Of a DNA stretch of 43,785 bases, positions 91 to 28,452 are shown piece after piece (the first letter of the stretch is position 1; every line of letters starts with the position of its first letter). The notes beneath the pieces are model-generated. The model was not told where the DNA came from and made no database searches. It worked only from the letters and a program-made list of their open reading frames with translations. Source of the stretch: an uncultured Lachnospiraceae bacterium (GTDB lineage: Bacteria; Bacillota; Clostridia; Lachnospirales; Lachnospiraceae). The translations under genes were made by a program, and so were the position numbers. The stretch lies in the NCBI GenBank assembly GCA_947588845.1, contig CANQAR010000021.1:1-43785 (forward strand), written 5' to 3'.

Positions 91-207
91 AAAATACCTC
101 TTGCTCCTGGCACCATCATCAGTATAGTATATTCCAGAGGCAATTACAAGAACGAGTCGGTTTGTAACTTTTTAATAAACTTTAAGAAAACTATCCGGGA
201 GGATTTG

Positions 208-236
208 TTGACAAAAGGACTTCAATCAACTATGCT
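208..236 (+). promoter_or_regulatory. Sigma-A promoter, polysaccharide block
   Basis: TTGACA at 208-213 is followed after 17 bases by TATGCT at 231-236. A transcript would start near 243 and leave a very short leader before the start codon at 260. This is the only strong promoter seen ahead of the first two genes. Confidence 0.6.
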
Positions 237-259
237 TAATACGATTGGGAGGTATAAAA

Positions 260-679
260 ATGGACGAAAGAAAACAATCGGCGGAACCGGAAGGACGCAG
301 AAAAAAACCGGAAAATCCGCTGCTTCAGACAAATAGCCAGAAAAATCAGAAAAAAGCGAATCAGGAAGTACGGGGTCGCACGGTATCCCGCAGAACACTG
401 CCGGAAAATACGGAGAAACATGCACAGGAAAGCATGCAGAAGAAAAATGTATACAAACTGCGGATTCTGACGATAATACTTGTGCTGCTGATTATAGCGC
501 TGATCGCCGCTTTTGTGTCCGAGATCGGAATATACGGAAAGCCGGACAGCAGAGCAGGGGGAAGCGCTGCAGCTGCGCCTGTACAGACAGAGCAGCAGAA
601 GACAGAATCTGCGCGGGCACAGAAAGCGGATACGAATGAGGAAGGGCCTGGAGCGGGCAGCAGCCTGGCCGGTCTGTGA
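260..679 (+). CDS. Small single-pass membrane protein, unknown function
   Basis: A 139-residue protein that I do not recognise. The start at 260 is chosen because GGGAGG lies 7 bases upstream; an in-frame TTG at 245 has no ribosome site. The first 65 residues are very hydrophilic, rich in Lys, Arg, Gln and Asn. One strong membrane helix follows at about residues 72-92, then a short Ala/Gln-rich tail that would lie outside. It ends 11 bases before the deacetylase gene, whose ribosome site overlaps this stop codon, so the two are probably translated together. A helper role in the deacetylase's surface function is a guess from position only. Confidence 0.7.
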   Translation: MDERKQSAEPEGRRKKPENPLLQTNSQKNQKKANQEVRGRTVSRRTLPENTEKHAQESMQKKNVYKLRILTIILVLLIIALIAAFVSEIGIYGKPDSRAGGSAAAAPVQTEQQKTESARAQKADTNEEGPGAGSSLAGL

Positions 680-690
680 GGAGAATACAG

Positions 691-2142
691 ATGGATGACA
701 GAGAGCTTATGACCAGAAAACGCCAGGAAAAGCATAAGAAGCAGGAACTGATTCTGAAAAGTATTATTTCCCTGCTGATTCTGATTGTTATATTTTTGGC
801 GGTTGTTCTGGTTAAGGATGCCGTGATACCGGAAATTTCGGGAAGGCTGGAGGAACGCGGCAGAGCGGAAAAAGATATGTCAGGCAGCGGAAATTCTGCG
901 GCCGGGCTGAATTCAGGGACAGAAAAGATGGCAAAGGACAGCGCTGCGCTGCTTTCAGAATCAGATTTTATGGCGTCTCAGTATGATTATGACGGCGCGG
1001 TTCAGTATCTGCAGTCACAGACGGAATACGCGTCCAGCCAGGAGATGCAGGATGCCGTGACGCGTTACCAGCAGCTGAAGGATACCTGCCAGTCTTACCC
1101 GCTGGATCAGATCACGCATGTATTTTTCCACACGATGATCCGCGATACCTCAAAGGCTTTTGACGGGGATGAAGATGAGGGCGGCTACAATCAGGTAATG
1201 ACGACGATGAGCGAGTTTGCCGCCATCATGGAAAGCATGTATGAAAAGGGTTACGTTATGGTCAGCCTTCATGACATGTGCACGGTAAATGAAGATGGGA
1301 CTGTGTCGCGCGGGGAGATTCTTCTTCCTCCGGGAAAGACTCCTTTTGTGCTGTCGCAGGATGACGTGAGTTATTACCACTACATGGACGGGGATGGTTT
1401 CGCGCAGAAACTGGTTCTCGATGAAAATGGAAACGTGAAAAATTCCTACCGGGAAGATGACGGTTCGATCTCGATCGGAGATTACGACATGGTTCCGTGG
1501 ATCGATACATTTGTCGATGAGCATCCGGATTTTTCGTATCACGGACATAAAGGAGTTATTGCTCTGACCGGATACGAGGGTGTGCTCGGCTACCGCACGG
1601 ATGAGGTCTACCGGACAAAGGAGCCTTCCCGCGTGACAGAATATCAGCAGAAATTTTTTGACGACAATCCGGATTTTGACGAGGCCGCGTGGCAGAATGA
1701 AGTGGATCAGGCAAAAGCGGTGGCGGACGCGATGAAAGCGGACGGATGGGAATTCGCGAGCCATACCTGGGGTCATATTTCTCCTCTTGCGAAAGGACTT
1801 GAGGTGACAAAGACAGATACAAAACGCTGGCTGAATAATGTGGGATCCATAGTCGGGGATACGGACATCATTATTTTCGCGTTCGGGGCGGATATCGGAA
1901 GCTGGGAGCCGTATACCAGCGACAATGAGCTGTTTGCTTATTTCAAAAAGAAAGGATTTTCCATCTTCTGTAATGTGGATTCTTCCCCGTACTGGGTTCA
2001 GTTCGGAGATACCTTTATGCGGCAGGGCCGCCGTAATCTGGATGGTTACCGCATGTATTACAATCCGGATATGGTTTCCGATCTTTTTGACGTGGACAGT
2101 GTCTGGGACAGCGCGAGACCGACTCCGGTGCCGGAAATGTGA
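691..2142 (+). CDS. Membrane-anchored polysaccharide deacetylase family protein
   Basis: A 483-residue protein starting at 691, with GAGGAG 6 bases upstream that overlaps the previous stop codon. A basic N-terminus and one membrane helix (about residues 23-44) would anchor it with the catalytic part outside. A charged spacer comes before the NodB-like deacetylase fold. The metal-site motifs are seen as S-Q-D-D near residues 222-225, replacing the usual T-F-D-D, and S-H-T-W-G-H near 357-362. Such enzymes remove acetyl groups from peptidoglycan or other N-acetylated glycans. It precedes sugar-nucleotide and glycan export genes, which supports a cell-envelope role. The substrate cannot be told from sequence. 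The large insert between the two motifs is longer than in classic NodB enzymes but is common in clostridial members. Confidence 0.85.
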   Translation: MDDRELMTRKRQEKHKKQELILKSIISLLILIVIFLAVVLVKDAVIPEISGRLEERGRAEKDMSGSGNSAAGLNSGTEKMAKDSAALLSESDFMASQYDYDGAVQYLQSQTEYASSQEMQDAVTRYQQLKDTCQSYPLDQITHVFFHTMIRDTSKAFDGDEDEGGYNQVMTTMSEFAAIMESMYEKGYVMVSLHDMCTVNEDGTVSRGEILLPPGKTPFVLSQDDVSYYHYMDGDGFAQKLVLDENGNVKNSYREDDGSISIGDYDMVPWIDTFVDEHPDFSYHGHKGVIALTGYEGVLGYRTDEVYRTKEPSRVTEYQQKFFDDNPDFDEAAWQNEVDQAKAVADAMKADGWEFASHTWGHISPLAKGLEVTKTDTKRWLNNVGSIVGDTDIIIFAFGADIGSWEPYTSDNELFAYFKKKGFSIFCNVDSSPYWVQFGDTFMRQGRRNLDGYRMYYNPDMVSDLFDVDSVWDSARPTPVPEM

Positions 2143-2171
2143 TTGAAAAAGAATTCTTTTGATGGTATACT
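2143..2171 (+). promoter_or_regulatory. Sigma-A promoter for rfbB
   Basis: TTGAAA at 2143-2148, a 17-base spacer, then TATACT at 2166-2171. It begins one base after the deacetylase stop codon and 46 bases before the rfbB start, so rfbB and downstream genes can be transcribed independently of the first two genes. Confidence 0.8.
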
Positions 2172-2216
2172 GAGTGCTGCTGTCATTTGATAAAACTGAA
2201 ATCCTGGAGGATAATC

Positions 2217-3299
2217 ATGAGAACTTATTTTGTAACCGGCGGAGCCGGTTTTATCGGTTCAAATTATATTCATTATATGTTTAAAAAGTACGGGGATGAG
2301 ATTCGCATCATCAATGTGGACAAGCTGACCTATGCGGGTAATCTTGAGAATCTCAGAGATATTGAGAACAGAGAGAACTATACGTTCATCCGCGCGGATA
2401 TCTGTGATTCGCAGACGATCAATCGGATTTTTGAGGAGAACGAGATCGACCGCGTTGTGCATTTTGCGGCGGAGAGCCATGTGGACCGCAGCATCCGCGA
2501 TCCGGAGGTGTTTGTGCGGACAAACGTTCTGGGGACTCTTGTCATGCTGAACGCGGCGAAGGCTGCCTGGGAGCTGCCGGACGGCACATTTAAGGAGGAC
2601 AAAAAGTTTCTCCACGTATCGACGGACGAGGTGTATGGTTCCCTCGAAAAAGAGGGAGAATATTTCTACGAGACGACGCCGTACGCCCCGCACAGCCCAT
2701 ATTCCGCGAGCAAGGCTTCCTCAGATATGCTGGTGAAGTCTTACATGGATACATACCGCTTCCCGGCGAACATCACGAACTGCAGCAATAATTACGGTCC
2801 GTTCCAGTTTCCGGAGAAGCTGATTCCGCTGATCATCAACAACGCGCTGCAGGGAAAGAAGCTGCCGGTGTACGGGGATGGCAAGAATGTGCGCGACTGG
2901 CTCTATGTGGAGGATCACGCGAAGGGCATCGACATGGTGCAGGAGAAAGGACGTCTTTTTGAGACGTACAACATCGGAGGGCACAACGAAAAGCAGAATA
3001 TCCAGATTATCCATATCATTCTTGATACGCTGCGGGAGATGCTGCCGGATGAGGATCCGCGCAAGGCCCACATCAGTGAAGATTTAATCACATATGTGAC
3101 GGACCGCAAGGGCCACGACAGAAGATATGCCATTGCTCCGGACAAGATCCGCGCTGAGCTCGGCTGGGAGCCGGAGACGATGTTTGAGGAAGGTATCCGC
3201 CGCACGATCAAATGGTTTTTTGAGAATGAGGAATGGATGAAGAATGTGACAAGCGGCGATTACCAGAAATACTATGAGGAAATGTATGCGCAGAGATGA
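2217..3299 (+). CDS. rfbB: dTDP-glucose 4,6-dehydratase
   Basis: A 360-residue short-chain dehydrogenase-type enzyme that converts dTDP-glucose to dTDP-4-keto-6-deoxyglucose, the second step toward dTDP-rhamnose and related sugars. The start at 2217 follows CTGGAGG by 6 bases. The NAD-binding glycine motif T-G-G-A-G-F-I-G is at residues 7-14, and the catalytic Y-S-A-S-K motif lies near residue 162. V-S-T-D-E-V-Y-G is also present, as expected for RfbB. Length is normal for the family. It is followed directly by rfbC. The companion genes rfbA and rfbD are not in this window, so the final sugar could be rhamnose or another deoxysugar. Confidence 0.95.
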   Translation: MRTYFVTGGAGFIGSNYIHYMFKKYGDEIRIINVDKLTYAGNLENLRDIENRENYTFIRADICDSQTINRIFEENEIDRVVHFAAESHVDRSIRDPEVFVRTNVLGTLVMLNAAKAAWELPDGTFKEDKKFLHVSTDEVYGSLEKEGEYFYETTPYAPHSPYSASKASSDMLVKSYMDTYRFPANITNCSNNYGPFQFPEKLIPLIINNALQGKKLPVYGDGKNVRDWLYVEDHAKGIDMVQEKGRLFETYNIGGHNEKQNIQIIHIILDTLREMLPDEDPRKAHISEDLITYVTDRKGHDRRYAIAPDKIRAELGWEPETMFEEGIRRTIKWFFENEEWMKNVTSGDYQKYYEEMYAQR

Positions 3300-3397
3300 C
3301 ATCCGGAGGGCAGATAAAACCCGGAGCTGACACCAGCGAAGCGGAAAACTCCGGAACCGGAATCTGCGGCACAGAGAAAAGGGGATCGATATATCAA

Positions 3398-3961
3398 ATG
3401 GGAAAAATAAAAGTAGAAACATGTCAGATTGACGGTCTGAAGATCATCACCCCGACAGTGTTCGGGGACGACCGCGGTTATTTTATGGAGACGTACAATT
3501 ACAATGATTTCAAAGAGGCAGGAATCGATCATGTCTTTGTGCAGGACAATCAGTCCGCGTCAAAAAAGGGCGTGCTGCGCGGTCTGCATTTTCAGGGAAA
3601 GCATCCGCAGGACAAGCTGGTGCGTGTGCTTTCAGGAGAAGTGTTCGACGCTGCGGTAGATTTAAGAGAGGGTTCTCCGACTTACGGACAGTGGTACGGA
3701 TGCATCCTGTCATCTGAGAACAAAAAGCAGTTTTTCATTCCGAAGGGATTTGCTCACGGTTTTCTTGTGCTTTCCGATTATGCAGAGTTCGCCTACAAGT
3801 GTACGGACTTCTATTATCCGGATGATCAGTGCGGTATCGCGTGGAACGATCCGCAGATTGGCGTCGCATGGCCGGTTCCGGAAGGAATGGAGCCGATTCT
3901 GTCCGAGGCGGACAGGCATCGCCTGACGCTTGCGCAGCAGAAAGGGGACTGTGCCGGATGA
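3398..3961 (+). CDS. rfbC: dTDP-4-dehydrorhamnose 3,5-epimerase
   Basis: A 187-residue cupin-fold epimerase acting after RfbB. Family motifs are visible: D-D-R-G-Y-F-M-E near residue 25, Q-D-N-Q-S-A-S near 48, L-R-G-L-H-F-Q near 60 with the catalytic His, and G-F-A-H-G-F near 120. The start at 3398 matches family length. A longer in-frame reading from 3296, which overlaps rfbB by ATGA, adds 34 residues with no family similarity. The ribosome site AAAGGGG is 14-20 bases upstream, rather far. The stop codon overlaps the next start by 4 bases. Confidence 0.93.
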   Translation: MGKIKVETCQIDGLKIITPTVFGDDRGYFMETYNYNDFKEAGIDHVFVQDNQSASKKGVLRGLHFQGKHPQDKLVRVLSGEVFDAAVDLREGSPTYGQWYGCILSSENKKQFFIPKGFAHGFLVLSDYAEFAYKCTDFYYPDDQCGIAWNDPQIGVAWPVPEGMEPILSEADRHRLTLAQQKGDCAG

Positions 3962-4776
3962 GCAGGCTGTTTACCGGGCGGAAGGAGTCTGGCAGAACTG
4001 CAAAGATGATAAAGAAGCTGGCGAAGAATGATTTCCGGACAAAATTTGCCGGTTCTTATCTGGGAATTATCTGGGCGTTTGTCCAGCCTGTCGTGACTGT
4101 GCTGGTGTACTGGTTTGTGTTCGAAATCGGATTTCGCAATCCGGACGCGGACAGCACGCTGACTGTGCCGTTTCTTCTGTACCTGGTGGCCGGCATCGTG
4201 CCGTGGTTTTTCTTTCAGGATTCCCTGACGGGCGGCACGAACTCCATGCTGGAATACAGCTATCTGGTGAAGAAGGTCGTGTTTCGGATCGACATCCTGC
4301 CGATCGTCAAGATTGTTTCCGCTATGTACGTGCATGCTTTTTTTGTGTGCTTTACGGTGCTGCTGTATCTTTTGTACGGGCATTTTCCGGATCTGTATTA
4401 CATTCAGGTCTTTTATTACAGCGGGGGACTGGCGCTTCTGGTGCTCGGATTCTGCTATGCGACGAGCGCGGTTGTCGTATTTTTCCGCGACCTGTCGCAG
4501 ATCATAGGCATCGCGCTGCAGGTGGGCGTCTGGGTCACGCCGATCATGTGGATTGCGGAGGACCGGCTGGTCAGTCATCCGGTTATACGGATGATCCTGA
4601 AGGCCAATCCGGTCTACTATGTTGTGACAGGTTATCGCGATGCGTTTATCAATAAGCACTGGTTCTGGGAGCGGCCGCTGTGGACGCTTTATTTCTGGTG
4701 CTTTACGGCCGGGATGCTGGTGTTTGGGCGGTGGATGTTCAGGCGGCTGCGCATTCATTTCGCAGATGTACTGTGA
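3958..4776 (+). CDS. ABC-2 type polysaccharide export permease (Wzm/TagG-like)
   Basis: A 272-residue integral membrane protein of the ABC-2 family that carries undecaprenyl-linked glycans across the membrane. The start at 3958 overlaps the rfbC stop codon (ATGA) and has AAAGGGG about 10 bases upstream. Short basic N-terminus, K-N-D-F-R-T-K-F-A-G-S-Y-L-G motif, then about six hydrophobic segments, including one beginning I-I-W-A-F-V-Q-P near residue 37; the NP(V)YY motif near residue 220 is typical of O-antigen and teichoic acid permeases. It pairs with the ATPase encoded 83 bases downstream. Confidence 0.92.
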   Translation: MSRLFTGRKESGRTAKMIKKLAKNDFRTKFAGSYLGIIWAFVQPVVTVLVYWFVFEIGFRNPDADSTLTVPFLLYLVAGIVPWFFFQDSLTGGTNSMLEYSYLVKKVVFRIDILPIVKIVSAMYVHAFFVCFTVLLYLLYGHFPDLYYIQVFYYSGGLALLVLGFCYATSAVVVFFRDLSQIIGIALQVGVWVTPIMWIAEDRLVSHPVIRMILKANPVYYVVTGYRDAFINKHWFWERPLWTLYFWCFTAGMLVFGRWMFRRLRIHFADVL

Positions 4777-4859
4777 AAGCATGGAGTCATCAGCTTTTAT
4801 TCATGGCAGTGCCCGCGCCGCAGGCATGAACGTTTACTGCAAGATTACGGAGGAAAGAC

Positions 4860-6281
4860 GTGGATAGGGAAACGGCGATCAGCATAGAAAATCTGTGCAA
4901 GATGTATAAACTGTACAATAAACCTTCAGACAGGCTGAAGGAAAGTCTGGGACTCACAAAGAAAAAATGCTACCGGGAGCACTATGCGCTCTCGGATATT
5001 AGTTTTGAGATAAAAAAGGGAGAGACGGTTGGGATCATCGGCACGAACGGGGCGGGCAAGTCCACGATTCTGAAGATTATCACTGGGGTGCTCAGTCCTA
5101 CAAGCGGCCGTGTCGTGACGGACGGCCGTATTTCCGCGCTCCTGGAACTGGGCGCGGGTTTTAATTATGAATATTCGGGTCTTGAAAATATCTATCTGAA
5201 TGGCACGATGATGGGATTTTCCGACGAGGAAATCGAGGAGAGGATGGACGATATTCTCTCGTTTGCGGACATCGGGGATTTCGTGCATCAGCCGGTCAAG
5301 ACGTATTCCAGCGGTATGTTTGTACGGCTGGCTTTTGCCGTCGCCATCAATATTGATCCGGAAATTCTGATCGTGGACGAAGCGCTCTCGGTGGGAGACG
5401 TGTTTTTTCAGGCAAAGTGTTACCGCAAATTTGAGGAATTTAAAAAGCAGGGAAAAACAATCCTTTTTGTGAGCCATGATCTTGGCAGCATCAGCAAGTA
5501 TTGCGACCGGGTCATTCTGCTGGATCATGGGACAAAGCTTGCGGAAGGTTCGCCCAAGGAGATGGTGGATCTGTACAAGCGCGTGATCGTACATCAGGGA
5601 CCGGAGGATCAGAAGAAGGGGACGGCTGTCCGCGACAGAGCAGCAGGAGACGCGGCCGGGAAGGACAGCGCGCAGGCCGGACTGCGTGCCGGCGCAGGGA
5701 AAAACGGTGCAGCGGCCAGTGAGAAGACAAGTTCGGAAAATGATGTGCAGACTGACATGCAGGAGACAGAGGAAGTCTCCGGTATCCGCTGGATTACTCC
5801 GCTCGAGATGAATCCGGGCGCGCTGGAATACGGTGACCGCCGCGCGGAGATGATTGGTTTCTGCCTGCTGGACAAAGACGGACTTCCGACCAATGTGATC
5901 GAAAAGGGAACGGAACTGACAATGAAAGTGCGCGTGCGCTATAATGAGGATATTGACGATCCGATCTTTGCGTACACGATCAAGGATATGCGGGGAACCG
6001 AGATTACAGGAACCAACACAATGTATGAGCGTGTCACGGTAGAGCCGCGGAAAGCAGGACAGACGGATGTGGTCACTTACGTGCAGGAGGTAAACCTGCA
6101 GGGCGGGGAATATCTGATCTCGTTTGGACTGACAGGATACCGAAACGGAGAGTTTGTTGTGTACCACAGACTGTATGACGCCTGCAGCCTGACAGTGATC
6201 TCCACAAAAAATACAGTGGGATTTTATGATATGAACGCGAAAGTATCGGTGTCGCTGGAAGAAGATAATCAGCAAATCTGA
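4860..6281 (+). CDS. Polysaccharide export ATPase with C-terminal cargo domain (Wzt-like)
   Basis: A 473-residue protein with GTG start at 4860 and GGAGGA 5 bases upstream. Residues 1-235 form an ABC ATPase: Walker A G-T-N-G-A-G-K-S-T at 61-69, signature Y-S-S-G-M at 149-153, Walker B I-L-I-V-D-E-A at 169-175 and an S-H-D switch. An Ala/Gly/Lys-rich linker of about 65 residues follows. The last 170 residues resemble the Wzt C-terminal beta-sandwich that recognises the end of the exported glycan. With the preceding permease it forms an ABC exporter. The cargo domain suggests a chain-end modification is read before export. The large gene downstream has a methyltransferase domain and could make such a cap; this is inference. 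Confidence 0.93.
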   Translation: MDRETAISIENLCKMYKLYNKPSDRLKESLGLTKKKCYREHYALSDISFEIKKGETVGIIGTNGAGKSTILKIITGVLSPTSGRVVTDGRISALLELGAGFNYEYSGLENIYLNGTMMGFSDEEIEERMDDILSFADIGDFVHQPVKTYSSGMFVRLAFAVAINIDPEILIVDEALSVGDVFFQAKCYRKFEEFKKQGKTILFVSHDLGSISKYCDRVILLDHGTKLAEGSPKEMVDLYKRVIVHQGPEDQKKGTAVRDRAAGDAAGKDSAQAGLRAGAGKNGAAASEKTSSENDVQTDMQETEEVSGIRWITPLEMNPGALEYGDRRAEMIGFCLLDKDGLPTNVIEKGTELTMKVRVRYNEDIDDPIFAYTIKDMRGTEITGTNTMYERVTVEPRKAGQTDVVTYVQEVNLQGGEYLISFGLTGYRNGEFVVYHRLYDACSLTVISTKNTVGFYDMNAKVSVSLEEDNQQI

Positions 6282-6289
6282 AGCATGGG

Positions 6290-6411
6290 AAGAAAACGGC
6301 GCCGCAGAGATGGCGGCGGATCGGTCCTGTGAAAAGTTTAAAGGATGAGAAAGAAACCAGAGCCGCGGGGATAGCGGCGGATCAGTTTTGTGAAAGATCC
6401 GGGGTACAAAG
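6290..6411 (+). repeat. Two-copy 61-bp imperfect tandem repeat with hairpins
   Basis: The gap between the exporter ATPase and the methyltransferase gene contains two diverged copies of a 61-base unit (about 6290-6350 and 6351-6411). Each copy keeps a GCCGC...GCGGC stem with a 7-base loop (6301-6317 and 6362-6378), while loop and flanks have changed. Confidence 0.6.
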
Positions 6412-6457
6412 AGAACGGAGAGGCGGATAAAAGAGAGCTGCGGAATGGAGTGTTGGC

Positions 6458-8866
6458 ATGGGAGAAAAAAGCCGGATGCAGGAAACGATTGGAAAGGTGA
6501 CGCTGGATTACCGGTTTTATCCGGGGGAGGATAAGTACAGTGACGGCGGGATCGAGGATGAGATGCTGGAGCTGGCAAAACTGTACGGCGGCAGCGATTA
6601 CAATAAAATAATTGAGGAGAAAAAAAGCTGGCCGATTCTGTATCATTTTTCCCATGTGCGCAGGAATATTGTGGAATGGCTGCCGATGACCGGGCAGGAG
6701 CGGGTGCTGGAGATCGGAGCCGGTCCGGGAGCGATCACGGGAATCCTGGCGGAGAAGGCGAAAAGTGTGACCTGCATCGATCTTTCAAAAAGACGCAGCC
6801 TGATCAATGCTTACCGCAACCGGGATCACGAGAATATTCGGATCCTGGTCGGAAATTTTCAGGATGCGGCGCGAGGGCTGGAAGAGAAGTTTGACCTCAT
6901 CACGCTGATCGGCGTGTTTGAATATGCCCAGTTTTCGATTCAGTCTCCGGATCCGTTTGTCGATTATCTGCTTGAAATCCGGCGGCTGTTGGCGCCGGGG
7001 GGCAGGGTGGTCATCGCGATTGAGAACCGTCTGGGGCTCAAGTACTGGGCCGGAGCGACGGAGGATCACACAGGAGTCTACTTCGAGGGGCTGGAGGGTT
7101 ATCCGACGACGGACTATGTGCGGACCTTTTCAAAACCGGAACTGGAGCAATTGTTTGTAAAGTCAAAATTTGCAAAATGGGAATTTTATTACCCGTATCC
7201 AGACTACAAACTGCCGGAATGCCTTTATTCCGACAGGTATCTTCCCCGAAAAGGGGAGCTGAACCGGAATGTCCGGAATTTTGACCGGCAGAGGATGCAG
7301 GTATTCAGCGAGGAGAAAGTGTATGATTCCCTTGTGGGGAGCGGGCTGTATCCGCTGTACGCAAACTCCTTTTTTGTGATCCTGACAGAGGAAGATGCCG
7401 GTTGTATGGAAAATTCGCGGAGACGAAGCGTCAGTCCGGCGGAAGGAGAAAGCAGGACTGCCGACCGGCAGGGAGTTCCTTCAGTGATTTACTCAAAATA
7501 TTCCAATGAACGGGATCAGCGGTTCCGCATCAGAACGGATATTCTGGAGTATGAGGACGGAAGCCGTGCAGTGAGAAAGACCGCGGCGGACCCGCAGGCG
7601 AAAGAACAGATCGCTTCCATCGGCAGAAAATATCAGGAGCTCGCTGAAAATCTGAAAGGAACAGGGATTCATGTGAATCACTGCGAAAGGAAAGACGGGG
7701 ACGCTTATCTGGAGTGGCTGGAAGGGCCGACGCTGGAGGAAGAACTGGACAAACTGCTCTTTGCGGGAAAGACGGATCAGATGATCAAAAAGATCCGGGA
7801 CTATTTTTCCCTGTTTGATGGAGACGATGAGGAATTTCAGGAGACGGACGGGTTTGTTCAGGTGTTTGGAGGATGTCCGTGGAACAGAAACGGAAAACAG
7901 GAACACAAGAAGGTTAAACCCGGGAATCCGCCTGGAAGGACAGGCATGCCGGACGGAAACAGAACAGCGGACAGGGGCGTGCCGGACAGCCGGAAAATGG
8001 CAGTGTCGTCGGATTTTCCGCCGCAGAGCTCCCGGAAAGTTTCGGATATCGACATGATATTTTCCAATGTGATTTGCACAGACAAGGGGTATGAGCTGAT
8101 CGATTATGAGTGGACGTTTGAATTTCCGGTTCCGGTAAAGTTTCTGAAATACCGCTGTCTCCGTTATTATATTCTAGGGAACACCCGGCGGGAAGAACTG
8201 CTGGGAAAGCAGGATCTTTACGCGGAATTTGGCATTGCGCCGCAGGAATGCCGGTGGTTTGATTCGATGGAGACCCATTTTCAGCAGTATATGCTGGGGG
8301 AATATCAGCCGGCATGGAAACTGTATGATGTGATCTCAGAGGGAATTATACAGGTGCGGCCGCTGGTGCAGGAAGCGTCTGCAAGGGAGAGGACGCAGCC
8401 TGTGGCGGTGTGGTTTGACTGTGGGAACGGATTTGCAAAGGAAAACAGCCGTCAGTACCGTCTGGCTTCCGGCATAAAAAAGAATTTGACGATTGATCTG
8501 CCCGCAGGGGCCAGAGCGCTGAAGATCAGTCTTGGCGGCGGACGGAGCGTTGTGCGGATCGGGAAGCTGGAGCAGTCGGGCAGGCCGCTTGCGTACGAGA
8601 CAGCCGGACACCGGGCCCCGAACGGAGATTATATATTCGACGACGTGGAAGCGGGATTTACAGTCCCTCGTCTGGATCAAAGCGGCCATCCGGTTGAGTT
8701 TGCGTTTTACAGGGAGCCTCTTGAGGGAATTCTGCGGGAGACGGTGCTTGCGCAGGACGGAAGAATCCGCTGGATGGAGCAGACGAAAGTGTGGAGGCTC
8801 TACAGTAAGATAAAAAAGCGGTTTGCCGGTTCTGAATCTTGCTATAATGGGCAAAAATGGATATAA
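6458..8866 (+). CDS. SAM methyltransferase fused to kinase-like domain
   Basis: An 802-residue protein starting at 6458 with GGAG 8 bases upstream. Residues 50-320 are a class I methyltransferase: the SAM-binding V-L-E-I-G-A-G-P-G at 83-91, C-I-D acidic loop about 20 residues later, and L-A-P-G-G-R-V near 178. From about residue 345 to 650 the sequence resembles a degenerate phosphotransferase: E-Y-E-D-G and an R-K near 375, E-W-L-E-G-P hinge near 427, and D-I-D-M-I-F-S-N...L-I-D-Y-E-W near 530-553, which looks like the catalytic Asp/Asn and metal Asp. The last 150 residues are unassigned. In its setting behind a Wzm/Wzt pair it may methylate or phosphorylate the end of the exported glycan. 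The methyltransferase call is firm; the kinase-like call is tentative. Its 3' end carries the asnS promoter. Confidence 0.82.
8840..8848 (+). promoter_or_regulatory. Extended -10 promoter for asnS
   Basis: TGCTATAAT matches the TGnTATAAT extended -10 form exactly. The -35 region is weak, as is usual for this promoter type. It lies inside the last codons of the methyltransferase gene, 59 bases before the asnS start, and separates asnS from the glycan block. Confidence 0.65.
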
Positions 8867-21124: not shown

Positions 21125-23710
21125 ATGAATATCAGCAAATTTACACAGAAGTCAATGCAGGCTGTGAATGATCTGGATAAAATTGCATATCAGTTTGGGA
21201 ATCAGGAAGTCGAGCAGGAGCATCTGCTGTATGCGCTGCTGCATCAGGAAGACAGCCTGATTGAGAAGTTGATCGAGAAGATGGAGATACAGAAGGAATA
21301 TTTTGACAACCGCGTGGAGCAGATGCTCAATGCCCGCGTGAAAGTGGCGGGAGCGCAGCCGTATGTCGGCCAGTATCTGAATCAGGCGCTTGTCAATGCG
21401 GAAGATGTGGCGAAGCAGATGGGCGATGAGTACGTTTCGGTGGAGCACCTGTTCCTGTCGCTGCTGAATCACCAGAGTCCGACGATGAAAACCCTGTGGA
21501 AGGAGTTCGGGATTACGAAAGAACGGTTTCTCCAGGCGCTCTCGACAGTGCGCGGGAACCAGCGGGTGACTTCGGACAACCCGGAGGCGACGTACGACAC
21601 ACTGAACAAATACGGGCAGGATCTCGTCGAGCGGGCGCGGAATCAGAAGCTTGACCCGGTCATCGGGCGCGACGCCGAGATCCGGAATGTGATCCGCATC
21701 CTGTCCAGAAAAACGAAGAACAACCCGGTCCTGATCGGTGAACCGGGTGTCGGAAAGACAGCCGCTGTCGAGGGTCTTGCGCAGAGGATTGTGCGCGGGG
21801 ATGTGCCGGAAGGACTGAAAGACAAAAAGATCTTTGCGCTGGATATGGGCGCGCTTGTAGCGGGCGCGAAGTACCGCGGCGAGTTCGAAGAGCGTCTGAA
21901 AGCGGTTCTTGAGGAAGTGCGCAAGAGCGAGGGCGAGATCATCCTGTTTATCGATGAGCTTCACCTGATCGTCGGCGCCGGGAAGACGGAAGGTGCGATG
22001 GACGCCGGAAACATGCTCAAGCCAATGCTGGCGCGCGGCGAGCTCCACTGCATCGGCGCGACGACGCTCGATGAGTACAGAAAATATATTGAGAAGGACG
22101 CGGCGCTCGAGCGAAGGTTTCAGCCGGTGCTCGTGGACGAGCCGACCGTCGAGGATACGATTTCAATTCTGCGTGGTCTGAAGGACCGGTATGAAGTGTT
22201 CCACGGCGTCAAGATCACGGACAGCGCTCTGGTGGCTGCCGCGACTCTGTCCCACCGCTATATCTCGGACCGTTTCCTTCCGGATAAGGCGATCGACCTC
22301 GTCGATGAGGCCTGCGCACTGATCAAGACGGAGCTGGATTCCCTGCCGAGCGAGCTGGACGAATTGCAGCGCCGCATTATGCAGATGGAGATTGAGGAAG
22401 CCGCTCTGAAAAAAGAGACGGACAAGCCGAGCCATGAGCGCCTGGAGGTGCTTCAGAGAGAACTCGCGGAGCTGCGCGATGAATTTAATTCACAGAAGGC
22501 GCAGTGGGATAATGAAAAGAAAGCTGTCGAGAATCTTTCCTCTCTGCGTGAGCAGATTGAGGCCATGAACAAACAGATTGAGCTTGCGCAGCGCAATTAT
22601 GATCTGAACAAGGCAGCGGAGCTTCAGTACGGCGAACTGCCGAAACTGCAGAAACAGCTGGCGATTGAAGAAGAGCGTGTGAACAGTCGGGAAATGTCTC
22701 TCGTGCATGAGAGCGTGACCGAGGAGGAGATCTCCCGGATCATTTCCCGCTGGACCGGTATCCCGGTCGCAAAGCTGACACAGGGCGAGCGCGCGAAGAT
22801 CCTCGCGCTTGACGAAGAACTGCACAAACGGGTCATCGGGCAGGACGACGGTGTCTCCCGTGTGACGGAAGCGATTCTGCGGTCAAAAGCCGGGATCAAG
22901 GATCCGTCCAAGCCGATTGGTTCTTTCCTGTTCCTGGGGCCGACAGGCGTCGGCAAGACGGAGCTGGCGAAGGCGCTGGCGGAAAATCTGTTCGACGATG
23001 AGCAGAACATGGTTCGTATCGATATGAGTGAGTACATGGAGAAACATTCCGTATCGAGGCTGATCGGAGCGCCTCCAGGATACGTCGGCTATGAAGAGGG
23101 CGGTCAGCTCACGGAGGCCGTCCGCAGGAAGCCGTACTCGGTTGTCCTGTTTGACGAGGTCGAGAAAGCGCATCCGGACGTGTTCAACGTGCTGCTCCAG
23201 GTGCTTGACGACGGACGTATCACGGATTCTCAGGGCCGGACGGTCGATTTCAAGAACACGATCCTGATCATGACCTCGAATATTGGTTCCGCGTATCTGC
23301 TGGACGGAATCGAGCCAGACGGCAGCATCCGTGAGGAAAGCCGGAATCTGGTTATGGAGCAGCTGCGCGCAAGCTTCCGGCCGGAATTTCTGAACCGTCT
23401 TGATGAGATCATCATGTTCCGTCCGCTGACGAAGGATAATATCGGCGGTATCGTTGACTTGATGATGAAGGATCTGAACAGACGGCTGGCGTCCCAGGAG
23501 ATCTCTCTGGAGCTTTCCCCGGCGGCGAAAGACTATATCATAGACGGCGGGTACGATCCGGTCTACGGCGCAAGGCCGCTGAAGCGGTTCCTGCAGAAGA
23601 ACGTGGAGACGATCGCGGCAAGGCTGATCCTGTCCGGAGAGGTGTCGATGGAGGATACGATTCTGATCGATCTTGAAGGCGGGGCGCTGACGGCGCGCGT
23701 GAAGAGATAA
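21125..23710 (+). CDS. clpB: ClpB disaggregase chaperone
   Basis: An 861-residue hexameric AAA+ unfoldase that rescues aggregated proteins with DnaK. The double Clp-N domain is at 1-145. The first ATPase has Walker A G-E-P-G-V-G-K-T at 205-212 and Walker B I-L-F-I-D-E-L. The long coiled-coil middle domain (about 405-525) is that of ClpB rather than ClpA or ClpC, and the second ATPase has G-P-T-G-V-G-K-T near 600 and V-V-L-F-D-E-V. A C-terminal D2-small domain follows. No ClpP-binding loop of the I-G-F type is seen, as expected. Start at 21125 follows GAGGAGGAGA. A single-gene unit. Confidence 0.97.
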
Positions 23711-23914: not shown

Positions 23915-25882
23915 TTATTTTGGGGATGCATCTGTCATAATCTGCACGGGGGCAGTCCTTCTTTCCGTTGTTCCGTCTCCCAGCTGTCCATACCTGTTCC
24001 AGCCCCACGTCCACAGGCTCCCGTCTTCCCTGACTGCCGCAATGAGGTAGCTTCCTACTTTCGCAGATTTTACTCCGTCCATGATCTGTACCGGACTGGT
24101 CCTGGCTTCTGTTGTCCCGTCCCCCAGCTGGCCATGTCCGTTCCAGCCCCACGTCCACAGGCTCCCGTCTGTTTTGACTGCCACATTTCTGTCATTGCTT
24201 CCAAGCAGCAGGGATTCCACTTCGGTCATAACCTGTACCGGACTGCTTTTATCCTCTGTCGTTCCATCTCCCAGCTGTCCATACCTGTTCCAGCCCCACT
24301 CCCAGAGGCTTCCGTCTTCCCTGATTGCCGCGCTGCGGTTGTTATTTCCCAATCTTACGTTTTTCACTTCGGTCATGATCTGTACCGGACTGCTTTTATC
24401 CTCTGTCGTTCCGTCCCCCAGCTGACCGCACCAGTTCCGACCCCACATCCAGAGGCTTCCGTCTTCCCTGATTGCCGCACTGTGATAATTTCCAAGCCTC
24501 ACGGCTTTCACTCCGGTCATGATCTGTACCGGACTGCTTTTGTCTTCTGTCGTCCCGTCTCCCAGCTCTCCATGCTTATTCCAGCCCCACATCCACAGAC
24601 TCCCGTCTGTTTTGATTACCGCACTGCGGGTATTTCCAAGTACCACGGTCTTCACTCCGGTCATGACCTGTACCGGACTGCTTTTATCCTCTGTCGTTCC
24701 GTCCCCCAGCTCTCCATGCTTATTCCAGCCCCACATCCACAGACTTCCATCTTCTTTGACTGCCGCACTGTGATAAGCTCCCAGGTTTACGGCTTTTACC
24801 CCGGTCATGATCTGTACCGGGCTGGTTCTGGCTTCCGTCGTTCCGTCTCCCAGCTCTCCATGCTTGTTCCAGCCCCACATCCACAGACTCCCGTCTGTTT
24901 TGATCACCGCACTGCGGTTATTTTCAAGAGTCGCGGCTTTTACCCCGGTCATGATCTGTACCGGACTGGTCCTGGCTTCCGTCGTTCCGTCTCCCAGCTC
25001 TCCATACTCGTTCCGGCCCCATGTCCAGAGGCTCCCGTCTTTTCCGATTGCCGCACTGTGATAATTTCCCAGATAAACCTGCGCCACCACGAAATCCTGC
25101 CCGTTCTGGACTGCCGGTTTTTCCAAATCCTTTGTCTCTGATTCAGATTCTGATTCCGGCTCCGTCTGACGTGTATCCGAAGTTTCTGAAACGGGCATGG
25201 TTTCCGCTTCTGTTGACGCCACTGTCTGATTTTCCTTATTGATAACAGTATTCTGTGCTGTCAGGTCTGACTGATCCGCAGACGGACCCTTAGAGCCGCT
25301 CCTGCCCAGCAGGAACGCGGCGACGGCCACGATCACTACGACGCATGCCGCAAGGGGGACGACCAGCTTTTTGGAACCTGCCCCGGATGCGCTGCTGCCG
25401 GTTTTGTCCCTTTCCCCTGCCGGCGGGATGGGCGGCGTCTGGCTGCTGACAAAGGAGTCTTTCGCCACCTCTTTCAGGTTCAGGGCCTTCTTGACGGCGT
25501 TCACCAGGTCGAGCTGGTCCATCATCTCCTGCAGGTTGCCCGGCTCGAAGACCTGTATGTTCTCCAGCTGGAACCGGAACCGGCTGATCTGGTAACTGCT
25601 TATCTTGACCGGGATGATCTTTTTCCTCCCCGTAATGGCCGTTCCCAGTTCCTTTGCGACCCATACCGATTTTTCCGCATTTTCCGACAGGACCAGCACG
25701 AACACGCTGCATCCGTCCAGAGCCTTGCTGATCTCCTCGATATAATCCTCACCCGGCGCGATGCCCCCGCTGTTGGCCATCCAGCAGGAGATCCCGTTGG
25801 CCTCCAGGTTGTCTTTTATCAGCCGGGCCCACTGTATGTCCTCGCTGCTGTAGCTTATGAATACCCTCTCATTCATCTCCAT
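23915..25882 (-). CDS. TIR domain - membrane helix - RCC1 repeat protein
   Basis: A 655-residue three-part protein. Residues 4-140 are a TIR domain: V-F-I-S-Y-S-S-E-D near 7-15, C-W near 33, and E78 in W-V-A-K-E-L at the place of the catalytic Glu of NAD-cleaving TIR enzymes. One membrane helix is at 173-193, preceded by K-K, so the TIR part should be inside. After a Ser/Glu/Thr-rich stalk (195-260), eight RCC1-type repeats of about 48 residues (266-655), each with D-G-S-L-W-x-W-G and L-G-D-G-T-T, should form a beta-propeller outside. The repeats are nearly identical in DNA. The start has GAAGG 4 bases upstream. Upstream neighbours on the same strand are a DHH phosphoesterase and a RyR protein. 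I infer a sensor that links an external signal to NAD cleavage; no partner such as ThsA is seen. Confidence 0.9.
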   Translation of the reverse strand: MEMNERVFISYSSEDIQWARLIKDNLEANGISCWMANSGGIAPGEDYIEEISKALDGCSVFVLVLSENAEKSVWVAKELGTAITGRKKIIPVKISSYQISRFRFQLENIQVFEPGNLQEMMDQLDLVNAVKKALNLKEVAKDSFVSSQTPPIPPAGERDKTGSSASGAGSKKLVVPLAACVVVIVAVAAFLLGRSGSKGPSADQSDLTAQNTVINKENQTVASTEAETMPVSETSDTRQTEPESESESETKDLEKPAVQNGQDFVVAQVYLGNYHSAAIGKDGSLWTWGRNEYGELGDGTTEARTSPVQIMTGVKAATLENNRSAVIKTDGSLWMWGWNKHGELGDGTTEARTSPVQIMTGVKAVNLGAYHSAAVKEDGSLWMWGWNKHGELGDGTTEDKSSPVQVMTGVKTVVLGNTRSAVIKTDGSLWMWGWNKHGELGDGTTEDKSSPVQIMTGVKAVRLGNYHSAAIREDGSLWMWGRNWCGQLGDGTTEDKSSPVQIMTEVKNVRLGNNNRSAAIREDGSLWEWGWNRYGQLGDGTTEDKSSPVQVMTEVESLLLGSNDRNVAVKTDGSLWTWGWNGHGQLGDGTTEARTSPVQIMDGVKSAKVGSYLIAAVREDGSLWTWGWNRYGQLGDGTTERRTAPVQIMTDASPK

Positions 25883-25918
25883 TCCACCTTCCCAGGTTTT
25901 TCTCTTCAGTTGTTTGTA

Positions 25919-26062
25919 TCCTGCGTGGAGCAGGATTCAAAACTCGCTTGCGAGTTTTGCGCGCGGGATTCGGGTCTGCGTCAGCAGACATCTTCAGCTC
26001 CGAATCTCTGCGCATTCTCGCGGAGCGTATATCAGATGGGGGAATCCCGCCACTGATACGAA
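25919..26062. repeat. Cluster of palindromes between the TIR and phosphoesterase genes
   Basis: Four hairpin-forming sequences in 144 bases: ATCCTGC-N5-GCAGGAT, AAAACTCGCTTGCGAGTTTT, GTCTGCGTCAGCAGAC nested inside GATTCGG...CCGAATC, and GCGGGA-type arms near the end. None has a strong T-run. The CTGCGTCAGCAG core is shared with the two-hairpin repeat family. It separates two same-strand genes and could be a transcription or processing boundary. Confidence 0.6.
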
Positions 26063-26066
26063 TTTG

Positions 26067-27656
26067 TCACTCACCGCCTGAAGAGGCGGGAGTCATCTCC
26101 ATCTGATATAATTTTTCAAAAATATCTTCTTTCACGATGTATACATCTTTTGAGACTGTCCTGTCCGCCTCATCCATCCGTACCACGAACCAGTCTCCCG
26201 GCATCCCTGTGATGTATTTCTCGTTGTCCCACAGGGTGAACAGCTTCATCCGCCTTTCCAGCTGCCTGGCATGGACGCAGGAAGTGTCCCTGGACATGCA
26301 GGAGCGGATATAAGGGATGAACGGGCGGCCCTCCCCGGTAAGTATGTCGATAATCTTCGGCTGGTAGCCCTTCCGACTTCCCTTTGTCGGCGATTCCTCG
26401 TAATAATAAGGCTCGTCCAGTACATCGTACCGCTGCGAAAATACCTCTGCCCTGCAGGGGTAAATATCGTGCTCCACGCCTGTCATGATCATGATGTCCC
26501 GGCCAAGGTTGATCTCGAAATCTCCCTCCAGCATACGCACCAGCACGCGCGCATTGCCTGACCCGTCCTGTTCAGGGAGCAGGTCTTCGCTGCGGACATA
26601 GCCCATCCTCACCCGCTTCTTGCGGTAAATGCGCATGCCCGAAAGGTCAGGCGTATCAGTGCGGGCATCATAGATATCCGTCTCTTTAAAATAAGCTTCC
26701 ATCTTGTCTGCCAGGATTTTTCCCGCCATGGCGGCCTCTTTTTCCGGGAGAGGCAGGAAGCCCCCTGCCTTCATGGAATGCCCGCCTCCTCCGCACAGGT
26801 ACGCCGCCAGTTCATCTGCCCGCGTCCTGTTGACGCAGCAGCGTATGGACAGCTTCGCCCCTCCCGCAAGCATGCAGAACGCGATACAGGCGTCAATGCC
26901 GTCCACCTCGATCATCAGGTCGCTGATGACCCCCAGCAGATTCGGGTCGCAGGGTTCTGCCTGGATGATGGCATACCGGCGGTCCGGATGGTAATCATGA
27001 CGGCTCAGCGCCCGGTTCACCAGATCGAGGTCCTCCAGGGACATGTTGGAATTGCGGAACAGCGTAATCAGGCTTTTGCTGAACTGCAGAGAGTCCCGCA
27101 TGTCCTTGTCCGCCGGATGGGAGATCTCCTGAAGGGATCCCGTATCCGTAAAGAGTCCGTAATACAGCGCTGTGGCAAGATTCTGGTTCCGGTTGATCTC
27201 ATCCCGGCTGTACCCCGCATCCTGCAGCAGTTCCCATACAACGGTGGAACAGGAGCCATAATTACTGACGATATGCTCCAACTGGGGAGAGATATGGTTC
27301 TCATGCAGCCTGGGGGAGGGCTCGTGGTGGTCGATGACTGCCCTCGCATGGCCATCTGTCCAGCCGCACAGCTGCGGCGATGTGTTGCGCTCCCCGATCT
27401 GGCAGTCCACCGCGATCAGAAGGTCCGGTTCCGGGATGGAACTGACATGCTCCGCAGGGATTCCCAACCCCCCCATCATGAGCCTTAAGTTGCTTTTCCG
27501 TATCTCTTCCGGTCCGCCGTATACAAAGCGGGGCTGCTTCCCGTGGTCCTTCAGGTAAGTGTAGACGGCAAACCCGCTGGCCAGAGCATCCGCGTCCGGC
27601 ACATTGTGGCACTGGATCACAATGTCATCATATTCCAGGAAATCTTCCAGCCTCAT
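26067..27656 (-). CDS. DHH/DHHA1 phosphoesterase with extra C-terminal half
   Basis: A 529-residue protein. Residues 1-315 are a DHH-family phosphoesterase like NrnA: metal ligands in H-N-V-P-D-A-D-A (17-24), D84 of V-D-C-Q, D-H-H at 109-111 and D171 in F-T-D-T-G, plus the DHHA1 substrate motif G-G-G-G-H at 289-293. Such enzymes cleave short RNAs or small nucleotides (pAp, linear or cyclic dinucleotides). Residues 340-529 are additional and appear to hold two related units, one around M-T-G-V-E...Y-P-C (392-401), the other around P-G-D-W-F (486-490), which resemble PGDYG-type domains; this assignment is tentative. The ATG overlaps the RyR gene stop by 4 bases (ATGA), so the two are translationally coupled. 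Confidence 0.88.
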   Translation of the reverse strand: MRLEDFLEYDDIVIQCHNVPDADALASGFAVYTYLKDHGKQPRFVYGGPEEIRKSNLRLMMGGLGIPAEHVSSIPEPDLLIAVDCQIGERNTSPQLCGWTDGHARAVIDHHEPSPRLHENHISPQLEHIVSNYGSCSTVVWELLQDAGYSRDEINRNQNLATALYYGLFTDTGSLQEISHPADKDMRDSLQFSKSLITLFRNSNMSLEDLDLVNRALSRHDYHPDRRYAIIQAEPCDPNLLGVISDLMIEVDGIDACIAFCMLAGGAKLSIRCCVNRTRADELAAYLCGGGGHSMKAGGFLPLPEKEAAMAGKILADKMEAYFKETDIYDARTDTPDLSGMRIYRKKRVRMGYVRSEDLLPEQDGSGNARVLVRMLEGDFEINLGRDIMIMTGVEHDIYPCRAEVFSQRYDVLDEPYYYEESPTKGSRKGYQPKIIDILTGEGRPFIPYIRSCMSRDTSCVHARQLERRMKLFTLWDNEKYITGMPGDWFVVRMDEADRTVSKDVYIVKEDIFEKLYQMEMTPASSGGE

Positions 27657-27961
27657 ATATTTTCACTTCCTTTCGGGACAATTCTGTAACCCAGCTTATA
27701 GATCAGCCTCAGGACTGACAGGGCAGTCTCCCTGTCATACTCCTGCTCGCCCTCCGGCAGTTCCCCATAGGGGACCAGGCAGGGCGTCGTCCTTGCGGCA
27801 TCGTCCCGCACCGCCCCATATGTCCATCCATCCCTCATCCTTCCCAAAGCCCATGTCTCATGGACATTCTCCGCCAGCTTCTCTGTGAGGCATGCCAGGT
27901 ATGCCGGGAGCACCACTTTGCTGGTGTCTACCGGTTCAGGCATGTAATCCTTCATTCTCAT
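27653..27961 (-). CDS. Stand-alone RyR domain protein
   Basis: A 102-residue protein that is essentially one RyR domain, the module repeated in eukaryotic ryanodine receptors. Visible hallmarks: Y-M-P-E-P-V-D-T-S near the start, L-A-E-N-V-H-E-T-W-A, D-G-W-T-Y-G, V-R-D-D, P-C-L-V-P-Y and Y-D-R-E-T-A. ATG 27961 is chosen since GGAGG lies 6 bases upstream; the frame is open to 27982 and an alternative start is at 27955. Prokaryotic RyR domains have been proposed, from comparative genomics, to recognise NAD-derived nucleotides in conflict systems. It is the first gene of the minus-strand group and has its own promoter. Confidence 0.88.
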   Translation of the reverse strand: MRMKDYMPEPVDTSKVVLPAYLACLTEKLAENVHETWALGRMRDGWTYGAVRDDAARTTPCLVPYGELPEGEQEYDRETALSVLRLIYKLGYRIVPKGSENI

Positions 27962-28013
27962 CCTCTGCCTCCATTTCTGCATTTGTATAATCGCCGAAAT
28001 ATGTTCATAAATG

Positions 28014-28112: not shown

Positions 28113-28334
28113 ATGCTGAAGTTTCAGGATAATTATACCACCCTTATAGAAACTTTTGAAGACTTTATTTTGCTTACATTTACCATAATTAATAACCCGA
28201 AAATCAGGTGGATATATCAGAAAAAAGATGGTATGATAAGGGAAAAGAAAGAGATTTGGGAAGGAGGGATTTCACATGAATTTACCACAGGATCCGGTCA
28301 TGCTGCTCAGCTATGTGAATACGCAGCTGCGTGA
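28113..28334 (+). CDS. Possible small hypothetical protein, 73 residues
   Basis: A reading frame with a good ribosome site (AAAGGGGG, 7 bases before ATG 28113). The product is hydrophobic in the middle and basic at the end, with no family I recognise. Its last 59 bases overlap the DUF4250 gene in another frame, so at least that part is unlikely to be conserved. It may be a decayed gene or simply the leader of the DUF4250 mRNA. Confidence 0.3.
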   Translation: MLKFQDNYTTLIETFEDFILLTFTIINNPKIRWIYQKKDGMIREKKEIWEGGISHEFTTGSGHAAQLCEYAAA

Positions 28335-28452
28335 CAACTACAGTTCTCTGGATGAACTGTGCGCGTCGCTTGCGGTGGACAAAGCGGAGATCACCGCGAA
28401 GCTGCGGGGGATTAATTATGAGTATGATGAAGAGAAAAATGCGTTTGTGTGA
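28276..28452 (+). CDS. DUF4250 family small protein
   Basis: A 58-residue protein starting at 28276 with AAGGAGGG 5-6 bases upstream. It begins M-N-L-P-Q-D-P-V-M-L-L-S-Y-V-N-T and ends with I-N-Y-E-Y-D-E-E-K-N-A-F-V, the pattern of DUF4250 proteins that are widespread in anaerobic Firmicutes and Bacteroidetes. It looks like a small helix-turn-helix-like bundle of unknown function. It is the first sound gene downstream of the divergent promoter that also serves the RyR group. Confidence 0.85.
   Translation: MNLPQDPVMLLSYVNTQLRDNYSSLDELCASLAVDKAEITAKLRGINYEYDEEKNAFV

Follow-up and report, generated by a model that had tools for sequence, protein, structure and literature searches.

A RyR, DHH phosphoesterase and membrane TIR gene cassette in a Lachnospiraceae genome as a candidate signalling system

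We analysed a stretch of 43,785 nt from an uncultured Lachnospiraceae bacterium (GCA_947588845.1, contig CANQAR010000021.1, positions 1 to 43,785, forward strand), called here the window, and focus on three of its genes, which lie on the minus strand in the order RyR, DHH, TIR-RCC1. Inspection of the open reading frames (ORFs) and Pfam searches show a stand-alone RyR domain, a DHH phosphoesterase with an added C-terminal half, and a TIR domain joined through a membrane helix to an RCC1 propeller (Table 1). The RyR stop overlaps the DHH start by 4 bases, and 184 bases separate the DHH and TIR genes. An initial annotation made from the DNA alone had given the same domains, strand, overlap and gap, all of which we confirm. 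The RyR start that fits best is 27961, with GGAGG just upstream; the longest ORF begins at 27982. We consider it very likely that the three genes form one system, a view already put forward in the initial annotation and which survives here, as the whole set recurs in five other genomes (in one of them with a weak TIR match) and nearly half of the DHH loci counted in the family are paired with TIR.

Table 1. Features of the three-gene cassette and its flanks in the window. G152 is a genus mate and L128 a related locus in another uncultured Lachnospiraceae bacterium; aa, amino acids.
Feature	Position	Strand	Basis
RyR (PF02026) stand-alone protein, 102 aa	27653..27961	-	Pfam E 5e-32; ATG with GGAGG upstream
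DHH/DHHA1 phosphoesterase with added C-terminal half, 529 aa	26067..27656	-	Pfam DHH E 1e-15
DHH catalytic half, aa 1-327	26676..27656	-	predicted fold of pApA/c-di-AMP phosphodiesterases
Added C-terminal half of DHH, aa 340-519	26100..26639	-	models; phrog_419 and phrog_4502 matches
Insertion at DHH-TIR junction, mostly dispersed genomic repeat	25925..26105	.	own-genome matches; break in L128 alignment
TIR - membrane helix - RCC1 propeller protein, 655 aa	23915..25882	-	Pfam
TIR domain, aa 4-113, Glu78 in SVWVAKE	25544..25873	-	Pfam; alignment
Membrane helix, aa 173-191	25310..25366	-	Kyte-Doolittle mean 3.05
RCC1 repeats, eight units, predicted outside membrane	23918..25099	-	eight Pfam RCC1 stretches
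clpB, insertion-site flank, outside the system	21125..23710	+	90.8% identical in G152
58-aa gene, other insertion-site flank, outside the system	28276..28452	+	65.5% identical to G152 gene directly after clpB

A search of 250 family genomes gave some DHH match in 154, and the pairing of DHH with TIR was counted at all 42 listed full-length DHH loci, found in 40 genomes. These 40 genomes amount to 113.9 Mb; at E 0.001 they hold 62 TIR_2 matches, of which 61 exceed the cut-off. TIR_2 lies within 5 kb at 20 of the 42 loci compared to 0.275 expected, with a Poisson P of about 2e-30 that overstates independence, the DHH loci being related by descent. At 11 of the 20 paired loci, the window included, the TIR_2 match is the sole one of its genome. 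A second set holds the best 80 of 442 relatives and so leans toward the window's type, which makes the 40-genome count the fairer one; here a TIR gene is present on the examined stretch in 56 and is the direct neighbour in 50, with 36 directly adjacent on the same strand at no more than 50 bp, 14 of these overlapping. The TIR genes of the 56 loci lie mostly downstream (31 on the same strand, 14 on the opposite one), with eight upstream on the same strand and three upstream on the opposite one. Both sets together give 114 distinct DHH proteins. Of the 108 judgeable ones, 74 have TIR within 5 kb (including L139, set by motif) and 34 do not; the other six lie at a contig end. On a quick DHH tree the TIR label changes 23 times compared to a mean of 33.4 for shuffled labels; the pairing is therefore clustered on the tree, yet has been gained or lost many times.

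Whole triads of RyR, DHH and TIR are found in the window, L128 (isolate Lapin-023), L129, L130 (Hungatella sp.) and L172, and L139 has the RyR-DHH pair with a convergent FHA gene that matches TIR_2 weakly (E between 0.001 and 0.01). The initial annotation had made its one-system view depend on RyR-DHH pairs neighbouring TIR-RCC1 genes elsewhere; such pairs do neighbour TIR genes in other genomes, with RCC1 in L128, and the view is not refuted. Measured on the longest ORFs, the RyR/DHH overlap is 4 to 14 bases long in five of the six loci, while in L172 RyR follows DHH. All triads except L172 fall within one supported clade of the DHH tree (11 rows, 99*), in which the RyR protein beside TIR is a longer one in L136 (by Pfam) and L158 (by a local hidden Markov model, HMM). 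Since L172 stands apart on the DHH tree, its triad is most simply taken as a second joining of RyR. This TIR-DHH-RyR triad occupies positions 116-7085 of a contig on which the translation of another gene reads like an integrase, perhaps part of a mobile element.

The 184-base gap between DHH and TIR had been held in the initial annotation, on account of its hairpins, to caution against a single operon. Comparison with L128, whose DHH is 94% identical to that of the window, shows that positions 25925-26105 of the window correspond to 11 bases there, with the alignment breaking at 25924/26106 and the insertion extending into the final DHH codons. Within the gap, 158 bases (25905-26062) have 43 matches in their own genome, counting themselves, and this repeat is hairpin-rich and dispersed through the genome. 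Most of the gap is an inserted copy of a dispersed repeat, and we have dropped the caution for this reason; in L128 all three genes stand close together on the same strand, with a RyR/DHH overlap of 4 bp and 23 bp between DHH and TIR. In G152, the one genus mate searched, DHH and RyR are both absent. The small flank gene, which we take to be DUF4250, lies about 0.1 kb after clpB in G152 and 4.6 kb away, beyond the cassette, in the window. The site in G152 is thus empty, and the three-gene cassette is therefore accessory.

We also considered the neighbours of RyR genes generally, which were matched in 37 of the 250 family genomes and in 10 of 398 genomes of the phylum. For all eight stand-alone RyR genes over the cut-off outside the window, TIR_2 or DUF4062 lies within about 1.8 kb at seven: TIR at L112, L114, L116, L219 and L220, and DUF4062 at L113 and L115, with neither at L111. 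DUF4062 is described as a TIR-like NADase in the available part of PMC13174449, and a term search of that main text, as available, returns neither ‘RyR’ nor ‘ryanodine’. Among 17 longer RyR proteins, a count that sets aside 21 of the 43 family RyR matches and G624, TIR or DUF4062 lies within about 2.2 kb in nine and not in eight, the latter including the second RyR protein of the window's own genome. At 82 viral RyR loci, covered to at most 5 kb on each side compared to about 10 kb for most host loci, TIR occurs once (L242) and DHH never.

In the window's DHH protein the DHHA1 match is weak (E 0.077) beside that to DHH (E 1e-15); across 65 aligned proteins at E 1, DHH is matched in all and DHHA1 in 64. 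Residues H17, D23, D84, D109-H110-H111, D171 and G291-G292-H293 are invariant in the 65, and D21 nearly so. The predicted fold of this half matches pApA/c-di-AMP phosphodiesterases, and the score against the NCBIfam NrnA equivalog is 25.9 bits, for a cut-off of 350. Residues 318-529 match no Pfam family above cut-off. Models of the whole protein and of the C-terminal half alone reach predicted local distance difference test (pLDDT) scores of 90.7 and 90.6, and suggest that this half consists of two beta-rich units, each closing with a helix and a strand, a division that rests on their similar predicted strand order, the internal repeat being weak by profile comparison (hhalign probability 16-25%). 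The initial annotation had called this half PGDYG-like. Its kinship to phage families is clear, with matches to phrog_419 (E 3e-7) and phrog_4502 (E 8e-7), both of unassigned function, but support from Pfam PGDYG (PF14083) is weak: there is no match in the window protein, and the three matches among the 65 aligned relatives (best E 0.14) are below the gathering score. Four small ORFs from other families (L325-L328) match Pfam PGDYG below cut-off, and all three that were run against PHROGs match phrog_419. The kinship of the C-terminal half (26100-26639) extends to the small phage proteins of phrog_419, phrog_4502 and phrog_1810, which could be signal binders.

The added half follows TIR. Among the listed matches in which it occurs without DHH, a count that sets aside the C-half fragment G089, a TIR gene is near in six of six loci (L066, L077-L081), and a cyclase-type gene lies between the two or is fused. 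At the loci that have the DHH half but lack the added one, TIR is seen in none of three (L071-L073, three of four listed genes). The former six loci constitute a second kind of TIR operon, in which the kindred half is either separate or fused. In L077, Pfam identifies a receiver and a class III cyclase, and the upstream gene of this second operon looks GAF-like by eye.

The third protein matches TIR_2 at aa 7-96 (E 2e-22) and RCC1 in eight stretches (E 5e-84). Glu78, which we take to be the catalytic residue, is invariant across 34 aligned TIR proteins including that of the window, in keeping with the intact Glu noted initially. A single hydropathy peak at aa 173-191 separates the two domains, with four lysines or arginines on the TIR side and two on the RCC1 side, a mild hint that the propeller lies outside the membrane. 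Of 47 TIR proteins longer than 600 aa at the loci of the 80 relatives, 44 have one such peak and three have none. The eight RCC1 repeats and the one helix of the initial annotation are borne out, but RCC1 is only one of several predicted ectodomains, most of them other beta-propellers: Beta-prop_THOC3 matches 21 of the 34 TIR proteins, L060 has DUF6273, L172 has the TIR domain only, and the TIR-RCC1 combination recurs among the partners in L128 alone. We considered an account built on RCC1 and dropped it for this rarity, Beta-prop_THOC3 being commoner. The RCC1 units at 23931-25073 are so alike in DNA that the alignment with L128 runs out of register, possibly reflecting unit exchange or a change in copy number. 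A second RCC1 fragment, 55% identical, lies on a short contig of the same genome (L076, C236 1509-2168).

The window's RyR protein scores 110.4 bits against PF02026, for a cut-off of 27.4. Its candidate catalytic dyad is H34/D76 in the 102-aa numbering, or H41/D83 in the long ORF from 27982, whose numbering is used below. According to the available part of a 2026 preprint (PMC13232231), the phage RyR protein RyDEP is a glycosidase that cleaves 2'cADPR and 3'cADPR, isomers of cyclic ADP-ribose (cADPR), via H75 and D117, with W78 contacting the adenine in a bracing role and H100 binding the phosphates. The window's H41, W44 and D83 match this spacing (+3/+42), as judged from positions, the RyDEP sequence itself being outside our alignment. 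The His/Asp dyad and the Trp are invariant in 14 of 14 distinct host RyR proteins, whose tree is poorly resolved.

The cassette resembles several known systems without coinciding with any. As in Thoeris, where the TIR protein ThsB works with ThsA, which senses a cADPR-type signal, a Glu-bearing TIR (TIR_2 with E78) is paired with a second enzyme and NAD-derived signalling would be expected. Unlike Thoeris, the TIR is membrane-anchored with a propeller, the partner is a DHH enzyme with a PGDYG-like half rather than ThsA, and RyR is added. A PADLOC scan of the three genes at E 1 finds no ThsA-type effector among them, no model for the DHH and RyR proteins, and weak ThsB matches for the TIR alone. 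With RyDEP, as far as it is described in the available part of PMC13232231, the window's RyR shares PF02026 and the His/Trp/Asp spacing; unlike it, it is host-encoded in an operon with TIR and has Thr at the His100 position. With DHH-DHHA1 phosphodiesterases (NrnA, GdpP, TM1595, Rv2837c and DhhP) the window's enzyme has catalytic motifs and fold in common, but it differs in its extra tandem module, its TIR and RyR neighbours and a score far below the NrnA equivalog. Members of the DUF4062/Swarozyc TIR-like NADases (PMC13174449, available part) stand beside stand-alone RyR in L113 and L115, whereas DUF4062 is not seen in the window's three genes. We found no description of a RyR-DHH-TIR set in the open-access literature searched, though some search terms were perhaps too narrow.

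We propose, with a probability of roughly 0.55, that the cassette encodes a TIR-based signalling module for sensing at the envelope, in which DHH is the catalytic partner and RyR serves as eraser or sponge of the signal. The analysis shows which genes are present and that their linkage is conserved, along with the catalytic residues, the predicted DHH fold and the empty site; the trigger, every biochemical step and the outcome, whether phage defence or envelope signalling, are inferred. Contact or envelope damage sensed by the outside beta-propeller would cluster the membrane protein, and the clustered TIR inside would make an ADP-ribose-type signal from NAD+; the simplest candidate is 2'- or 3'-cADPR, given the intact Glu and the RyR partner. 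The DHH enzyme with its tandem PGDYG-like module would be the cognate catalytic partner of the TIR, with about even chances, within this proposal, of being an effector switched on by the signal, and somewhat smaller ones of being a second turnover enzyme that degrades it. RyR would bind the cyclic signal or open its ring to ADPR, giving a threshold and a reset, as phage RyRs do to Thoeris signals; it probably acts on the TIR product. The transmembrane TIR with its outward propeller becomes a candidate sensor of outside events and RyR a candidate off-switch within TIR signalling, and the phage family phrog_419 gains a function-bearing context. The known connection of cADPR with ryanodine receptors would also have a parallel in bacteria, where RyR domains are genetically tied to TIR enzymes making cADPR-type signals. 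Of the scheme first suggested for these genes, the one-system part is upheld by the linkage counts, whereas the central place of RCC1 and the role of RyR as sensor are revised: RyR need not be a sensor, since the related phage proteins act as cADPR glycosidases or as sponges in the available part of PMC13232231.

Several observations weigh against this proposal. The DHH enzyme also lives outside TIR systems, since 34 of the 108 judgeable loci lack TIR (a few are beside a GGDEF-EAL gene, read from translations), and outside the family TIR is near only one of four DHH loci (L333, by a local HMM). Where the TIR gene runs convergent to DHH, as in L129, L130 and further loci, the two cannot lie on one transcript. 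Stand-alone RyR is present at only six of the 114 DHH loci, and within the window's own clade L131, the next relative after L128 (upstream side only), and L179 have no RyR upstream. The dyad does not prove hydrolysis by the window's RyR, because among the RyDEP homologues tested in PMC13232231 (available part) only that of DyoEdafos hydrolysed cADPR, while six of eight bound it. The window has Thr66 (+25; 27785-27787) at the position of RyDEP H100. This residue is Thr in all six DHH-linked RyRs and in L114, L219 and L220, His in L111, L113 and L116, Asn in L112 and Asp in L115; the viral rows, which include some duplicates, have His in 60 of 62. This pattern points less to a loss of function than to a changed ligand or rate, or to a protein that binds. 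Finally, no defence island was seen: a PADLOC scan at E 1e-10 of 37 of the 44 listed neighbours at nine loci gave only mad3, PD-T4-6 and MkoA models, and we dropped an argument from defence context accordingly. An anti-phage role is plausible, unsupported by the neighbouring genes.

This lack of a defence island would equally suit envelope or host-surface signalling in place of anti-phage defence, in which the propeller senses an outside ligand and a nucleotide signal adjusts physiology. It would be in line, too, with the presence of the kindred C-terminal half in a TIR/receiver-cyclase operon and with an FHA protein (Pfam) and a kinase-like gene (by eye) near the L139 genes. The patchy presence and clean empty site of the cassette argue otherwise, as do the integrase-like gene near the L172 triad and the fact that, to our knowledge, RyR function comes solely from the phage-defence arms race; we regard such signalling as possible, with the odds somewhat against it. 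Rather doubtful is an account in which the TIR is a plain NADase, or makes a signal for a receptor elsewhere, and RyR and DHH merely erase its product. Here RyR would open the ring and DHH cleave what is left, much as a DHH-DHHA1 nuclease clears the type III CRISPR messenger (a title cited in PMC7824862), a route consistent with the hydrolysis of cADPR isomers by a phage RyR (PMC13232231, available part) and with the predicted phosphodiesterase/pyrophosphatase fold of the DHH half. However, no recurrent third gene stood out as a candidate receptor in the neighbour clusters beside DHH-TIR pairs, and the two-unit module added to DHH is a layout that would be expected of a sensor joined to an enzyme. 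Chance or hitch-hiking, with TIR and RyR having landed beside a housekeeping DHH phosphodiesterase, draws on the loci without TIR and those beside GGDEF-EAL genes, but is very improbable given the excess of pairs over expectation, the several gene orders and orientations, the number of times that the pairing was gained or lost along the DHH tree (23 changes), the short RyR/DHH overlaps, and the presence of RyR in both the main clade and the distant L172.

Beyond the proposed envelope-sensing module, we tentatively suggest a broader reading, unlikely as it may be, in which bacterial RyR domains are native receptors and erasers of TIR-made cADPR: a stand-alone RyR glycosidase or sponge would tune a membrane-spanning TIR together with a DHH enzyme gated by the signal, while other Bacillota would pair TIRs with RyR-tailed ion channels. 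The PGDYG-like half would then be a second cADPR-type binding module, carried by phages as small stand-alone proteins. If this is true, the pairing of TIR with a RyR-tailed channel would foreshadow the control of animal ryanodine receptors by cADPR. The longer RyR proteins beside TIR or DUF4062 are possible cADPR-gated effectors. For instance, L122 (8449-12629) encodes a K+-channel pore (Ion_trans_2) with RyR at its C-terminus; a TIR gene follows after two bases, and its propeller matches are weak. L221 has a TrkA_N-RyR protein, L225 an AAA-RyR protein with TIR, and L223 also a longer RyR beside TIR or DUF4062. In the viral loci L233 and L238, the RyR neighbours read from their translations like nicotinamidase and phosphoribosyl pyrophosphate (PRPP) synthetase, which would fit phage repair of NAD+.

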